Positions 36,132 to 40,534 of a DNA stretch of 40,534 nucleotides are shown in pieces. This DNA comes from a virus: positions 1 through 40,534 of IMG/VR virus record IMGVR_UViG_3300009610_000377. The stretch is one strand, 5' to 3'. The notes under the pieces are model-generated. The model was not told where the DNA came from and searched no databases. It was given only the letters and a program-made list of their open reading frames with translations. Numbering within the stretch: the stretch's first letter is position 1; every line of letters starts with the position of its first letter. The translations under genes were made by a program, and so were the position numbers.

Positions 36132-36683
36132 TCATACTTCCAACATCTCATATTTTTCGGGATCTTTAGGCGATGGTGCGATGATTACAACTTTCGCAAC
36201 GTTATCCTTCGGCGCATCAGATGCATCTGTCATATTCTTATATATCACAGATGTATCTTTGGCTATGGCTATGATCTGATGAGATTTTAAATTCTCTTTC
36301 TCTACTCTAGATATATCCACCAACCCCATCAACGCCAACGTCCTTTGCAACGCAGTCTGAGCAGCTTCCTGTCGGATTTCAGATATTTGCTTTTTCAGCT
36401 CATGATCTGTCACCCCATGGCAAGATCGAGCATTCTTTAACTCATAGACACGCTGTCTGGTTATATCAAACTGGCGCGCCGTATTATTAACACCTTCAGA
36501 CCATGCTAGAGCCCCGACGACGGGCTTCATAATGGGCAGGATTTTATCTATCCTATGCTCAGCTTTCTTTCTGCCACCGTTAAAATATGGCTTATGTTGG
36601 ACTTCGACTATTCGGGGATCATTAGAAGCATTCTGCTCTGATGACATCCGTTTAGCCAATTCTTTTTGATCTATATAATTCAT
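36132..36683 (-). CDS. terS: terminase small subunit-like protein, 183 aa
   Basis: A helix-turn-helix is visible at about residues 57-86 (LAWSEGVNNTARQFDITRQR), within a helical, basic protein of the right size. It lies immediately upstream of terL and is the first gene of the leftward virion operon. Small terminases recognise the packaging site through such a domain. The family is inferred from HTH plus position. Confidence 0.65.
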   Translation of the reverse strand: MNYIDQKELAKRMSSEQNASNDPRIVEVQHKPYFNGGRKKAEHRIDKILPIMKPVVGALAWSEGVNNTARQFDITRQRVYELKNARSCHGVTDHELKKQISEIRQEAAQTALQRTLALMGLVDISRVEKENLKSHQIIAIAKDTSVIYKNMTDASDAPKDNVAKVVIIAPSPKDPEKYEMLEV

Positions 36684-36712
36684 ATCACCACGACCTGGAT
36701 TTATCTCCTACC

Positions 36713-36718
36713 ATTATA
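36713..36718 (-). promoter_or_regulatory. candidate -10 box of the virion operon promoter
   Basis: A perfect TATAAT lies on the minus strand 30 bases before the terS ATG, preceded by ACTGCG. No good -35 lies at 17 bases; a TTGACG sits 33 bases upstream, too far for a standard sigma-70 promoter. An activator or phage factor could compensate. The call rests on the -10 alone. Confidence 0.35.
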
Positions 36719-36897
36719 CGCAGTATATGTTTGATCTATCTCTTAGATCTACGTCAAGCGCTAGCAGGCTCTGAGACGAGCGATCGATCATAGCAACCTA
36801 TCATGCCGCCGGACCTTGGCTTATAGCCCGTCCTGGCCCATCGAGCGCGTCGTGGCAGTCCTTATATATGACCCCTCACCCCATCTCCCTGCCCACT

Positions 36898-36969
36898 ATC
36901 ATAGATCTATGATCATATCTATAGCTTTTTTGCTATAAATCCATGATGGATAAAAAGTATATATACTTT
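36898..36969. repeat. cluster of perfect palindromes
   Basis: Five palindromic elements lie in 72 bases: ATCATAGATCTATGAT (36898-36913, perfect), TATGATCATA (36908-36917), TATAGC/GCTATA around a T6 loop (36920-36937), ATCCAT-G-ATGGAT (36939-36951), and AAAGTATATATACTTT (36954-36969, perfect). They can be protein-binding operators or the AT-rich core of an origin. No coding frame explains them. Confidence 0.75.
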
Positions 36970-37308
36970 CTTAGAATACTTAACAGACAAATATATATGG
37001 GCTCCCCCCAAACCCCCCACGGCCCGACGAGGCTCATTGATACATACATAAACTATCCATATATGTATGGTCTATGCCTGGATAATACAGCTATGATTTC
37101 ATGGAACAAAAAGAATATGTAGATACATGGAACATCGGCGCGCCGTAGTCGTCTAACGCTGTGAGAAACGAGAGAGGTACAAGAGAGAAAGTACAAGAGG
37201 TAAGACGGGACGGAAAGCGAAAGACGCGAATAAACAACAGGAAACAAGGAACACTACAGCTAGAAATTTTTCAGCGGGACATAAAAGCAGAGTCCAGACA
37301 ATGGATAC

Positions 37309-37373
37309 TGCTAGAGAATCGTGCTACTTTCGGAATGGTCCTAATACAAGGCCCTTCCCATCATTCTCTAGCA
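37309..37373 (+). repeat. 11-bp inverted repeat with 43-base loop
   Basis: TGCTAGAGAAT at 37309-37319 and ATTCTCTAGCA at 37363-37373 are perfect complements. The left arm begins CTGCTAG, as in the right-arm modules downstream, but the loop is far longer and no Shine-Dalgarno follows. It may be a relative of those modules or part of a non-coding RNA. Confidence 0.55.
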
Positions 37374-37758
37374 TTGGACTCGAATAGATACGCCAGCGGC
37401 AGGCTAGTAACATCGGCAAGCTACGCTAGCACAGGCTAAAGTCATGCGAAAGCATTAGGATAAGCCAAAGGGCTAGAGCGCGGCCAATCCCGAAAAACAC
37501 TGCGACAACATATTTACTCTCTGGACTGGCGTACGGAAACATGCTCTCTATGGACAGGAGCATCCAAGCCAATCTCCGACATTGCGAATAGGCGAACGCG
37601 CGACGGGAAATGACATTGAAGCTAGCAATGTGGCTGCTCGCATATTAGTGGACCTGTCTGGGGTACAGCATGGGATGTTAGCATAGAGCCTAGCAAGCTT
37701 TGTGCTAGCATTATAGGGTATGGGGAATGATTGACAGCATAAACACTGTGAGGTTTTT

Positions 37759-37902
37759 ATGAAAAAGCGAATCATTCTTGCAATTCTCATAGTGCTTGGT
37801 CTAGCGTCTGACATGGGCCGGGTATATCAGGATTGCCCAGGAGAACCTACAGACGGTGAGCTTGAATACTGCGTCTCAGGCTGGATTAGCTGGATAGACT
37901 GA
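37759..37902 (+). CDS. small exported or membrane peptide, 47 aa
   Basis: The ATG follows GTGAGG by five bases. The N-terminus KKRIILAILIVLGLAS is a classic signal sequence. The mature part has two Cys (DCPGEP, YCVSG) that could form a disulfide in the periplasm, and Trp near the end. It is the first gene of the right arm. A TTGACA at 37731-37736 upstream may be a promoter -35, but no good -10 was seen. Confidence 0.55.
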   Translation: MKKRIILAILIVLGLASDMGRVYQDCPGEPTDGELEYCVSGWISWID

Positions 37903-37926
37903 ATAGGATAGCCTCATACCCTACAA

Positions 37927-37950
37927 TGCTAGCATAATGGCATGCTAGCA
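37927..37950 (+). promoter_or_regulatory. CTAG hairpin upstream of a right-arm gene
   Basis: TGCTAGCAT (37927-37935) pairs with ATGCTAGCA (37942-37950), a nine-bp stem with a six-base loop, followed by TGTGGAGA and ATG at 37971. It resembles the modules downstream but lacks the CCTGCTAG and CAATGGAGG flanks. Confidence 0.5.
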
Positions 37951-37970
37951 GGATGATTGTGGAGAATACA

Positions 37971-38321
37971 ATGACCGACCGTGAAAAGGAAAACGCGGAA
38001 GTGGCGGAGAAGGTCGTCGAAGATGCCAAAGAACTGGCAATCGCGCCGGTCGAGACCGTTTCGCTTTCCGGCAAGAAGCGGAAGAAGCGGAATCTGAACC
38101 TCTCCAAGGATCAGAAGCGGCAGATCAAGTATCTGCGATTTGCAGATCGTGTTGGAATCGTGTTTGGCGATACGAATATCAAGGTTTCGCGGCAGGATTC
38201 CATCCGCTTGGTCGAGCGGAAGAAGGCCAAGGTGACTTTCGTCACCGATGGGGGAGGAGATTACTCCTCTTGCACCGTTTGGCCGATTGATTACGTGGCA
38301 AAGCCGAAGGGAATCGAATAG
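37971..38321 (+). CDS. hypothetical basic/acidic protein, 116 aa
   Basis: The ATG at 37971 follows GGAGA; an in-frame ATG at 37953 lacks a ribosome site. The first 30 residues are an acidic helix, then a KKRKKR stretch, then a beta-like C-terminal half (RVGIVFGDTNIKVS, KKAKVTFVTDGGG). Codons are clearly more GC-rich and uniform than in its neighbours, suggesting high expression or separate origin. It may bind nucleic acid, but the family is unknown. Confidence 0.6.
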   Translation: MTDREKENAEVAEKVVEDAKELAIAPVETVSLSGKKRKKRNLNLSKDQKRQIKYLRFADRVGIVFGDTNIKVSRQDSIRLVERKKAKVTFVTDGGGDYSSCTVWPIDYVAKPKGIE

Positions 38322-38324
38322 CAT

Positions 38325-38372
38325 CCTGCTAGAATGCTGGAGTGGATAGAAAATTCCAGCATTCAATGGAGG
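38325..38372 (+). promoter_or_regulatory. intergenic hairpin-RBS module 1
   Basis: Three bases after the TAG stop, CCTGCTAG leads into GAATGCTGGA (38332-38341), pairing with TCCAGCATTC (38355-38364). Ten perfect pairs extend to 12 with one G-U. CAATGGAGG follows directly, then ATG at 38378. The same layout recurs at 38558, 38919, 39204 and 40204 with unrelated stem sequences. Confidence 0.8.
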
Positions 38373-38377
38373 ATACT

Positions 38378-38554
38378 ATGACTGAAAATGGAAAGATCGC
38401 TGTGCAAAACCTGACCCGCGAAATCATGCGCGAGATTCAGAGTAACATCAAAAGCCCAGCGTATGTGACCACAGTGAATATCGCTGTGAATCAACAACGC
38501 AAAGCCCGCGTGACTGCTACGCTGAAGTATTACGAGACGGTGGATCTGGGGTAG
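38378..38554 (+). CDS. hypothetical protein, 58 aa
   Basis: I take the ATG at 38378, five bases after GGAGG. The frame upstream runs through the hairpin and is unlikely to be coding. The protein is basic with an N-terminal helix (KIAVQNLTREIMREIQ) and beta-like second half. The stop is a double TAG TAG. Not recognised. Confidence 0.55.
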   Translation: MTENGKIAVQNLTREIMREIQSNIKSPAYVTTVNIAVNQQRKARVTATLKYYETVDLG

Positions 38555-38557
38555 TAG

Positions 38558-38606
38558 CCTGCTAGTGATATCAATCTTGAAATATAGATTGATATCACAA
38601 TGGAGG
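38558..38606 (+). promoter_or_regulatory. intergenic hairpin-RBS module 2
   Basis: After TAGTAG, CCTGCTAG enters the stem GTGATATCAATCT (38565-38577), which pairs perfectly over 13 bp with AGATTGATATCAC (38586-38598) around an eight-base loop. CAATGGAGG follows, then ATG at 38616. The stem shares no sequence with module 1. Confidence 0.82.
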
Positions 38607-38615
38607 TTGCTGTAT

Positions 38616-38915
38616 ATGCTCTGTGAAGTGAAGCATAAGGAAGAGCTAAAGGGTAGGAAATATGTTCAATTCCTACTTTCTCCTGAGAATTATACAATCA
38701 TCATGGGCACTCAAGGCCATGAGCAGCTATTGTATGATTTCAATCTCTCACGGCGGGATTACTGCTATGGGGGATATATCAGAACAGAGAGCAGGGATAT
38801 CGTGCCTATCACTGGTACGGTTGAGAATATTCCAAAGAATCTGTGGGAAGTTGTTGTTGCAGATCTTTCGGAATTCTTCGGATTCGATATTCGTATGGAT
38901 CCGTATTATACCTAG
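38616..38915 (+). CDS. hypothetical protein, 99 aa
   Basis: The ATG at 38616 lies nine bases after GGAGG. The product is mixed alpha/beta (RKYVQFLLSPENYTIIMG, LWEVVVADLSEFFGFD). The codons look typical for the window. No family recognised. Confidence 0.6.
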   Translation: MLCEVKHKEELKGRKYVQFLLSPENYTIIMGTQGHEQLLYDFNLSRRDYCYGGYIRTESRDIVPITGTVENIPKNLWEVVVADLSEFFGFDIRMDPYYT

Positions 38916-38918
38916 TCG

Positions 38919-38968
38919 CCTGCTAGATGCTGATGTATGGATATGGACATACATAGCATCAATGGAGG
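38919..38968 (+). promoter_or_regulatory. intergenic hairpin-RBS module 3
   Basis: Three bases after TAG, CCTGCTAG leads to GATGCT, a bulged G, then ATGTATG. These pair with CATACAT and AGCATC (arms 38926-38939 and 38948-38960; 13 pairs, one bulge; loop GATATGGA). CAATGGAGG and ATG at 38974 follow. Confidence 0.8.
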
Positions 38969-38973
38969 TTGCT

Positions 38974-39192
38974 ATGAAAGATGTACTAAATCAGAAATGG
39001 AATGATCCTGATTTTGTATATCTCAAGGGCTTCGAGGCTGCGGCAAATGTGATAGCAGAAGGATATCTGACGATAGATATGATTCCGCTATTCGTCCGAC
39101 GTAAGTTAAAGCAAGCCTGTGAGAGTACAGATATCTTCAATCATTTCCATTGGGGAATGGCTGATGGTTATCTATCAGCGTTAGGAGTTTGA
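38974..39192 (+). CDS. hypothetical protein, 72 aa
   Basis: The start is five bases after GGAGG. The protein is helical (LKGFEAAANVIAEGY, IPLFVRRKLKQACES) with an aromatic/His segment (FNHFHWGMADGY). Small, soluble and unassigned. Confidence 0.58.
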   Translation: MKDVLNQKWNDPDFVYLKGFEAAANVIAEGYLTIDMIPLFVRRKLKQACESTDIFNHFHWGMADGYLSALGV

Positions 39193-39203
39193 TGCTTCTA
39201 TAA

Positions 39204-39241
39204 CCTGCTAGAATGCTAGATATACTAGCATTCAATGGAGG
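39204..39241 (+). promoter_or_regulatory. intergenic hairpin-RBS module 4
   Basis: CCTGCTAG enters GAATGCTAG (39211-39219), pairing over nine bp with CTAGCATTC (39225-39233) around ATATA, then CAATGGAGG. This is the shortest stem of the five. The first seven pairs equal those of module 1, while the rest differ. Confidence 0.78.
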
Positions 39242-39248
39242 CTGTAGA

Positions 39249-39326
39249 TTGCTAAGCATGAATGGTAAGCGGGATGATTACTTCCTGCGAGGCCATTATG
39301 TCGAGATTGTGGATACTACAGGATAG
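39249..39326 (+). CDS. 25-residue peptide ORF behind module 4, TAG-interrupted frame
   Basis: A TTG at 39249 is seven bases after GGAGG, in frame with an ATG at 39258 that is farther away. The peptide (NGKRDDYFLRGHYVEIVD in its middle) ends at TAG 39324-39326. The same frame stays open after this TAG for another 38 codons to 39443, so a nonsense mutation or readthrough is possible. Confidence 0.38.
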   Translation: MLSMNGKRDDYFLRGHYVEIVDTTG

Positions 39327-39438
39327 AGTGCATTCGCCAGAGACATACAGATGGATTTGCTCTGGAGCACGTTTACTAAGACTGCAAGTCTGCAATTAAA
39401 TCCCTATGGTAAGTGTCGGGATACCAATGCTGTAATGC

Positions 39439-39460
39439 GCTAGAGATTATAACCTCTAGC
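39439..39460 (+). promoter_or_regulatory. CTAG hairpin
   Basis: GCTAGAG (39439-39445) pairs with CTCTAGC (39454-39460) around ATTATAAC, in the gap before the 35-residue ORF. It is not followed by CAATGGAGG; the next ribosome site (TTGGAGA) is 45 bases away. It may be a degenerate module. Confidence 0.45.
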
Positions 39461-39515
39461 ATCCTGTGGGTGGAATCATAGCCTCCGCTATAAATTTAAT
39501 GATTTGGAGAATCAT

Positions 39516-39623
39516 ATGCACCATAAGATAAGAATAACCTATGGTCTTACAAGCCTAAGCGATACAGGATCCCGCTGGTTATCGCTAAGTGGCGCACAGT
39601 GGATTGCGCATATCACACCTTAA
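39516..39623 (+). CDS. 35-residue peptide ORF
   Basis: The ATG follows TTGGAGA by five bases and the frame runs 35 codons to TAA. The peptide is Ser/Thr/Trp-rich with no known motif. The ribosome site is the chief support. Confidence 0.32.
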   Translation: MHHKIRITYGLTSLSDTGSRWLSLSGAQWIAHITP

Positions 39624-39644
39624 TTGAGTTATTAGCCTACAGTA

Positions 39645-39803
39645 TGCCATCATGTTGAGGTAAAGAGGCTGATTGCATAGATAGGGCATGAGTCGTTAAT
39701 CTTTAGCTAGAAATTCTTGGAAGAGTGCGCGCTTATTTCTAAGCTAGCGAGAGTTCATGCATATCATAGCACAGCACACTAAAACTACCAATTCATGATG
39801 GCA
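39645..39803 (+). other. structured intergenic segment with nested long-range inverted repeats
   Basis: Nested complementary segments are visible: TGCCATCATG (39645-39654) with CATGATGGCA (39794-39803), GATA with TATC (39680/39762) plus GCATGA with TCATGC (39686/39755), and GCTAGAAAT with ATTTCTAAGC (39706/39735, one bulged A). Together they form a long imperfect hairpin just before the next start. The last arm also takes part in a short CATGAT/ATCATG hairpin touching TGGAGG. Confidence 0.5.
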
Positions 39804-39818
39804 TCATGGAGGTTGATA

Positions 39819-39965
39819 ATGCATATGTACAATTGGAGCCTTCGACGTCGCACCTTTTACTCTCCAACCGCATGCGCTCAATTTGTCAGGAATTATCCTG
39901 GCAAGATTGCTAGCATGGGATTCGAGGGCCGGCTCATGGTGCTGCACTTTCGTCTGCCGTTTTAA
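39819..39965 (+). CDS. small basic protein, 48 aa
   Basis: The ATG is six bases after TGGAGG (39807-39812). The protein is basic and aromatic (NWSLRRRTFYSP, GRLMVLHFRLPF). A six-bp hairpin with a three-base loop (39794-39808) abuts the ribosome site. Not recognised. Confidence 0.48.
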   Translation: MHMYNWSLRRRTFYSPTACAQFVRNYPGKIASMGFEGRLMVLHFRLPF

Positions 39966-40015
39966 CATCATGTTCAAGATCATATTTCTAATCTGGATGT
40001 TGATGGATTGTGTCC

Positions 40016-40201
40016 ATGTTTCAAACTAGATCAGAAGAAACTGGTTTGAATGAGCACAAGACGTTAGCAGATGCGTTAGAAGCTGCTAGCAAAGACCAAT
40101 CAATTTGGAAAATCTCTTTTACAATCAGGGATACCAATGAGAGGGTCAGGCTTGTAAGAAAATACGAACAGTATTGGGTTTACGAGCCAATAAAGTTCTG
40201 A
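40016..40201 (+). CDS. hypothetical protein, 61 aa
   Basis: The frame opens at GTG 40010 or ATG 40016; ATGGA upstream is a weak ribosome site. The product is soluble (KTLADALEAASKDQSIWKIS) with a possible beta hairpin at its end. Its TGA stop is two bases before module 5. Confidence 0.5.
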   Translation: MFQTRSEETGLNEHKTLADALEAASKDQSIWKISFTIRDTNERVRLVRKYEQYWVYEPIKF

Positions 40202-40203
40202 TA

Positions 40204-40248
40204 TTTGCTAGATATGATAGTTATCATCAACTATCATATCAATGGAGG
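40204..40248 (+). promoter_or_regulatory. intergenic hairpin-RBS module 5
   Basis: TTTGCTAG enters GATATGATAGTT (40211-40222), pairing over 12 perfect bp with AACTATCATATC (40229-40240) around ATCATC. CAATGGAGG follows, then ATG at 40256. The CC-to-TT change in the left flank would keep pairing with the Shine-Dalgarno through G-U. Confidence 0.82.
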
Positions 40249-40255
40249 TATCAGT

Positions 40256-40420
40256 ATGTGTAAAAAGTACCCCTTTTATATGACTCATGATGAGGCTCTT
40301 ACTCTCATACGATTCATCATTGATCATATGGGGGTGGAAGAAGTTGAAGATAAGACGATACGTCAAATCGCGTCTTATATGTCCAATTGCATCGTTCAGG
40401 AGATGCTTTCAAATGCATAG
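40256..40420 (+). CDS. hypothetical helical protein, 54 aa
   Basis: The ATG is seven bases after GGAGG; upstream in-frame codons lie in the hairpin. The protein is helical (HDEALTLIRFIIDHMG, TIRQIASYMSNCIVQEM). Not recognised. Confidence 0.58.
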   Translation: MCKKYPFYMTHDEALTLIRFIIDHMGVEEVEDKTIRQIASYMSNCIVQEMLSNA

Positions 40421-40529
40421 CAATCCACGAAGAATCAAGCATCGTCATGAGACATGCAATTGCAATTCATGCATGCCTCGGGCGCGTCGTGGTAGGAGAA
40501 AGATCACGTTACGAGATCATCGTAGGTAA
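40413..40529 (+). CDS. small Arg-rich Cys protein, 38 aa
   Basis: The ATG overlaps the previous gene by eight bases and has AGGAG nine bases upstream. The peptide contains CNCNSC and many Arg/His (RRIKHRHE, RARRGRRK), suggesting a metal-assisted nucleic-acid-binding miniprotein. It ends five bases before the window edge. Confidence 0.45.
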   Translation: MHSNPRRIKHRHETCNCNSCMPRARRGRRKITLRDHRR

Positions 40530-40534
40530 TCATA

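Follow-up and report, generated by a model that had tools for sequence, protein, structure and literature searches.

A structured RNA element spans the gaps between neighbouring small genes in the right arm of a 40,534-base virus contig, classed as linear (hereafter the window, i.e. the whole stretch of DNA analysed), and it belongs to a real, recurring RNA family: 21 distinct copies are found in eight groups, namely the window and seven further phage or plasmid groups. As modelled, the element consists of an outer stem P1 of ~9 bp, a 4/5-nt internal loop GCUA/[A/U]AUGG and an inner stem P2 of 7–13 bp. P1 holds the upstream stop codon in its 5′ strand and, in its 3′ strand, the Shine–Dalgarno (SD) AGG together with the bases that lead to the start codon. 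With copies in unrelated phages, strong covariation and no Rfam match, the original prediction of an undescribed cis RNA element has held up, and the family is very likely new, on a partial coverage of the literature under which an earlier description is possible. We favour, at a probability of about one half, the reading that it is a cis-acting phage mRNA element bridging a stop codon and the next start, in which a terminating ribosome would relieve the masking of the SD sequence.

The window encodes a large terminase subunit, a DNA polymerase and a primase, and its right arm (from ~37.7 kb, + strand) carries small ORFan genes. The five elements and the genes next to them are as follows.

37953..38321, + strand: small gene preceding element 1 (122 aa counted from its first ATG), no Pfam match
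38316..38383, + strand: element 1 (covariance model R1, 59.8 bits; fold; ORFs)
38378..38554, + strand: small 58-aa gene between elements 1 and 2, without a Pfam match
38549..38617, + strand: element 2 (R1, 57.5 bits; fold; ORFs)
38616..38915, + strand: small 99-aa gene between elements 2 and 3, without a relative in the phage collection
38910..38979, + strand: element 3 (R1, 50.0 bits; fold; ORFs)
38974..39192, + strand: small 72-aa gene between elements 3 and 4, without a Pfam match
39195..39252, + strand: element 4 (R1, 57.8 bits; fold; ORFs)
40010..40201, + strand: small 63-aa gene upstream of element 5, without a Pfam match
40195..40259, + strand: element 5 (R1, 55.2 bits; fold; ORFs)
40256..40420, + strand: small 54-aa gene downstream of element 5, without a Pfam match

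All five modules of the original prediction lie where it had placed them, on the + strand, and each shows the layout of YYTGCTAG, hairpin and invariant flank. The sequence CAATGGAGG occurs exactly five times in the window, always on the + strand (38364, 38598, 38960, 39233 and 40240), and is preceded each time by YYTGCTAG and a hairpin. From element 1 to element 5, P2 measures 12, 13, 12 (with one bulge), 9 and 12 bp, as expected from the 9 to 13 bp given for the stems. While hairpin and ribosome-binding site (RBS) are thus both present, the description as a hairpin-RBS module missed the outer stem P1 that masks the SD sequence, and the element is larger than that description allowed. RNAfold predicts P1 in all five modules: the YYT/stop region pairs with AGG and the bases up to the start, so that the whole stop-to-start gap becomes a single hairpin (P1, GCUA/AAUGG, P2).

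In element 1, the TAG stop codon of ORF 37953-38321 lies within P1 (TAGcATCCT/AGGATaCTA), the loop reads GCTA/AATGG and an ATG start stands 5 nt past GGAGG. Elements 2 and 3 also contain a TAG stop; their outer stems are TAGTAGCCT/AGGTTGCTG and TAGTcGCCT/AGGTtGCTA, and their ATG starts follow GGAGG by 9 and 5 nt, respectively. Element 5, with a TGA stop and an ATG 7 nt past GGAGG, has all 9/9 positions of P1 (CTGATATTT/AGGTATCAG) paired; its YYT is TTT, not CCT, pairing being kept through U-G. Element 4 (P1 CTATAaCCT/AGGcTGTAG) has its TGA stop 8 nt farther upstream than usual, and its TTG start, 7 nt past GGAGG, opens a 25-aa ORF only, a doubtful gene.

Against shuffled controls, the window modules fold better (z −3.1 to −5.6), and the right arm contains five perfect stems of ≥9 bp, compared with 0.39 expected from dinucleotide shuffles (maximum 2). 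Scanning the window with R1 returned exactly these five elements and no other credible match, in agreement with the claim that the left arm has none. The right arm (36600-40534) is strongly enriched in TGCTAG, also outside the five elements, and YTGCTAG occurs 34 times in the window vs 12.7 in shuffles. Two other readings of the conserved letters were discarded: as a sigma-70 promoter, TGCTAGAAT has a good −10-like hexamer in only 2/5 modules and no conserved −35, and ATGGAG as a real start codon soon runs into stops in modules 2, 4 and 5.

Several other features of the window stand apart from the elements. The left arm carries a tRNA with a CAT anticodon (2486-2562), and ~0.8 kb at 36700-37500, probably an early control region, is mostly non-coding and divergent, contains numerous hairpins and includes a G-rich stretch (minus strand gtggggggtttggggggagccc). 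A 26-nt inverted repeat (88% complementary; 37700-37725 / 37912-37937) flanks a 47-aa ORF at 37759-37902, and a 9-bp hairpin, TGCTAGCATaatggcATGCTAGCA, which is not a copy of the element, lies ahead of the next gene at 37927-37950. Another 26-nt inverted repeat (81% complementary; 39629-39654 / 39794-39819) looks like a degenerate relative of the modules; its arm at 39794-39819 overlaps the RBS-like CATCATGGAGGTTGATAATG near a 56-aa ORF (39795-39965).

The phage collection yielded no close relative of the window phage by megablast, one relative only (28%) in a terminase search, and no close relative with the DNA polymerase or with the small-gene and 398-aa proteins. Since close relatives were not found, copies were sought by pattern: 2.9 million viral contigs were searched for the flank patterns and the matches then tested for both stems. 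Together with a covariance model, as the original prediction had proposed, these scans gave copies in the seven further groups. Over whole records, R1 scored 23 to 60 bits on five copies in the window, nine in G001 and a single one in every other record. The source records are as follows.

Locus L153: record G001, a 62-kb phage
Loci L181/L187: records G002/G003
Locus L216: record G004
Loci L143/L149/L163: records G005-G007
Locus L158: record G008
Locus L282: record G009, identical over 801 compared bases to Paenibacillus larvae plasmid pPLP3 (NZ_CP020558.1)
Loci L279/L319: records G010/G011
Locus L398, 6616-6676 (NZ_CP020558.1): the counterpart of the G009 copy in P. larvae pPLP3, directly after the ArdA stop codon, with no start after GGAGG

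Over the loci compared, blastn shows no DNA similarity among the eight groups, nor is the terminase of the window related to that of G001. G001 holds a tenth, weak copy (16.2 bits) in which stop, stems and start are kept; its copies span 27.7-42.3 kb of the record and include forms outside every search pattern, i.e. TATGGAGG, AGTGGAGG and, in three copies, an inner loop extended by a 3-nt insertion (GC-NNN-UAG). An RNA ligase is also encoded by the G001 phage. The element was absent from three other ArdA-bearing phage loci, and strict filters, run without a positive control, found no prophage copies in 299 genomes from the phylum of Acidovorax or in 396 genomes from that of Proteiniphilum. First scans with short flank patterns gave mostly chance matches, ten bacterial-genome matches were rejected for missing the paired stems, and weak R1 matches below 26 bits outside G001 were set aside as chance pattern matches.

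Covariation is strong in both stems and supports the claim that pairing was kept while sequence drifted. In alignment A1, made from sequence only, 95.7% of cells are paired (64.3% when shuffled), with 77 double changes vs 25.4 in shuffles and a covariation score of 0.917 vs 0.260; shifting the partner by one to three columns lowers the score to 0.10-0.20. An alignment of 20 copies, which was fitted to the model, gives 95.8% paired cells and a score of 0.904 (0.248 shuffled). RNAalifold recovers both stems unprompted and finds double changes in 17/22 pairs. That the stems differ almost wholly in sequence was somewhat overstated: they do covary, but GAATGCT is common to modules 1 and 4, and GATGCT is found in module 3.

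Pairing and flank letters played a part in how copies outside the window were selected, and the weight of the argument therefore rests on the five window copies, the copies that the model found in G001 and the swap test. Among the window's five alone, 27/30 positions of outer P1 are paired, vs 18 when halves are swapped between modules. P1 halves pair with their own partners at 76/89 positions vs 47 after swapping, and 0/10,000 swaps did as well. Both stems occur in 11/282 distinct flank-pattern matches from viral contigs—a count that includes L157, which passes the two-stem filter and was rejected as a chance match in coding sequence—compared with 0.17 when halves are swapped (maximum 1). Scrambled inner loops gave 0-1 matches vs 13 for the true loop; the swap test is the fairer of the two because the loci had been picked by their flank letters.

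The pairing also points to the strand that folds. Within the outer part of P1, G-U pairs outnumber A-C by 18 to 7; in the SD-facing part, the AGG of the 3′ strand is fixed, whereas the facing 5′ bases are C or U (at one pair, C-G in 10 copies and U-G in 10). A fixed AGG opposite varying C/U, together with the excess of G-U, indicates folding of the sense strand, as the other strand would give A-C mismatches. By the same token, GGAGG is conserved in its own right, and the bases that face it are kept for pairing only. All copies are co-oriented with their genes.

The element is tied to the upstream stop codon as much as to the downstream gene. In 15/21 copies, the first base of the ORF-derived stop codon, within P1, lies 12-13 nt before the first base of P2, the 3-nt insertion being subtracted for three G001 copies. 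The same distance is found in 13/19 when two copies retrieved with a TAA-containing pattern are left out (P ~1e-9 under a crude null, uniform over a 21-nt range). Element 4 and five other copies depart from it, their stop being 10 to 21 nt away from P2. If the stop codon occupies the A site (+4 to +6), a spacing of 12-13 nt puts the start of P2 at +16/+17, approximately the leading edge of the ribosome as defined by toeprinting.

Downstream, an ATG or TTG stands 4-9 nt past GGAGG in 17/21 copies. The remaining four (G001 28106, G002/G003, the P. larvae plasmid and G010/G011) keep UGGAGG and have no start codon after GGAGG, so the claim that the element is fitted to each gene is too narrow. GGAGG is ~80% paired in the free fold and mostly paired in all predicted folds. 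When the first 16 nt are masked, the predicted mean unpaired fraction of the SD rises from 0.19 to 0.38, strongly in some copies; for G002, G004 and G005, masking of the 5′ strand leaves the SD closed in the predictions.

These features suggest how the element may work. On free mRNA, P1 would mask the SD sequence and the next gene would be silent by itself. A ribosome that terminates on the upstream gene would occupy P1's 5′ strand as far as the base of P2 and thereby melt P1, while P2 would stay folded and hold SD and start codon near the ribosome; the same or a new 30S subunit could then start the next gene. Runs of small genes would as a result be expressed in order and in stoichiometric amounts. 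As for the invariant inner loop, it would probably serve the geometry of the junction, or the binding of the ribosome or a protein. The start-less copies and the inner loop, whose invariance goes beyond what masking needs, are left unexplained by SD masking alone. Passages of a 2025 review report that, in one library screen, coupling tended to be weaker where structure immediately followed the stop (PMC12548453). A bolder version, which we consider improbable, is a widespread phage device for ribosome hand-off: the base of P2 would meet the leading edge of the terminating ribosome, and the inner loop would dock the post-termination ribosome and pass it over the folded gap to the next start, the start-less copies being the same device put to another post-termination step.

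Among the rival explanations, a processing signal of the RNase III type, as in the T7 early region, is the least unlikely, although we still regard it as unlikely. A single cut in the asymmetric internal loop would leave the upstream mRNA trimmed back to a stable hairpin at its 3′ end and release the downstream mRNA with a GGAGG 5′ end, which would account for the copies without a start codon. The likeness is considerable: T7 R1.1 forms a hairpin of 60 nt between early genes, and its asymmetric internal loop measures 4 nt/5 nt (PMC6121014), as in the present element, and T7 sites likewise sit between small early genes, with UAUG on the 3′ side of the loop. However, R1 scores ≤7.1 bits on the T7 early region, i.e. 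it neither matches the T7 sites nor points to homology with them; and the upper stems in T7 share sequence and the SD lies outside the hairpin. Moreover, P2 has only 7-8 bp in several phages, below the T7 upper stems, and cleavage would need neither an invariant loop sequence nor a fixed stop distance nor an SD inside P1. An inner loop whose letters are invariant between two freely varying stems, in several copies per genome (window, G001) and with the SD in P1, could alternatively be read as a translational operator or riboswitch-like site, where a phage or host protein or a ligand would time SD exposure across a whole gene set. This is quite improbable: no candidate binding protein was found, and a tight distance to the upstream stop is unexpected for a simple operator.

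Integron attC sites follow a stop codon and combine low sequence conservation with a conserved fold; they have R/L core boxes, and it is their bottom strand that folds. A gene-cassette site of similar layout, folded from single-stranded DNA, would fit a position right after the stops of arrayed small ORFan genes, the start-less copies and a structure kept while sequence varies. We nevertheless consider it very improbable, as the excess of G-U over A-C marks RNA-type pairing of the sense strand, one side of P1 is an SD followed at normal spacing by a start in 17/21 copies, the attC core letters are absent and no tyrosine recombinase was seen among the window proteins tested, which cover part of the ORFs. 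Ordinary intrinsic terminators, DNA operators or chance palindromes, suggested by hairpins between genes, have a negligible probability: the five sites have no T-tract, as the original prediction had argued, and no terminator call; they are not operators of one protein because their stems differ in sequence; chance is excluded by the shuffles, swaps and scrambles; and the copies across genomes already refute this whole group of readings.

Little is known about how phages control the order and ratio of expression where tiny genes are densely packed, and for the route of a terminated ribosome to the next start in coupled genes, passages of the coupling review describe two competing models (PMC12548453). 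A compact element of fixed geometry, recurring in unrelated phages and a P. larvae plasmid, makes the mechanism testable with short reporters. As an RNA family, very likely new, it also signals where genes meet in phage genomes, and it could supply a coupling part for synthetic operons.

Comparison with Rfam 15 gave a single match at gathering threshold in the window, the tRNA at 2486, and no credible match at E≤1 for six element-bearing loci. Repeated elements near small phage genes have been described before. In cluster K mycobacteriophages, the extended SAS (ESAS) combines 17-bp inverted repeats of a consensus with the SAS GGGATAGGAGCCC (PMC3203893). Like the present element, SAS/ESAS place a repeated element, with an inverted repeat, just upstream of many small phage gene starts; unlike it, departures of the ESAS repeats from the consensus do not support RNA pairing (PMC3203893), whereas here the stems have no consensus and covary, and the conserved letters are others. 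The PeSLs of T4-like phages are cassettes of an early promoter and a stem-loop (PMC4503421), repeated between small hyperplastic genes in a comparable way; they pair a promoter with a terminator-like stem-loop, in contrast to an element that has no promoter or T-tract and carries the SD inside its stem.

The closest counterparts are translational-coupling hairpins, for which the RNA unfolding model holds that the downstream RBS is hidden until upstream translation opens the structure; passages of the coupling review name single masking structures in phages f1 (genes VII/IX) and MS2 (coat-lysis) and in E. coli rpmI-rplT, and these passages mention no standard recurring element (PMC12548453). 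As in such coupling structures, the SD sequence is predicted to be paired in free RNA and the stop codon lies within or next to the masking stem. While the f1, MS2 and rpmI-rplT hairpins are single, case-by-case solutions in the passages that describe them, the present element is standardized, with an invariant loop and a fixed stop distance, and recurs in unrelated phages with up to about ten copies per genome.
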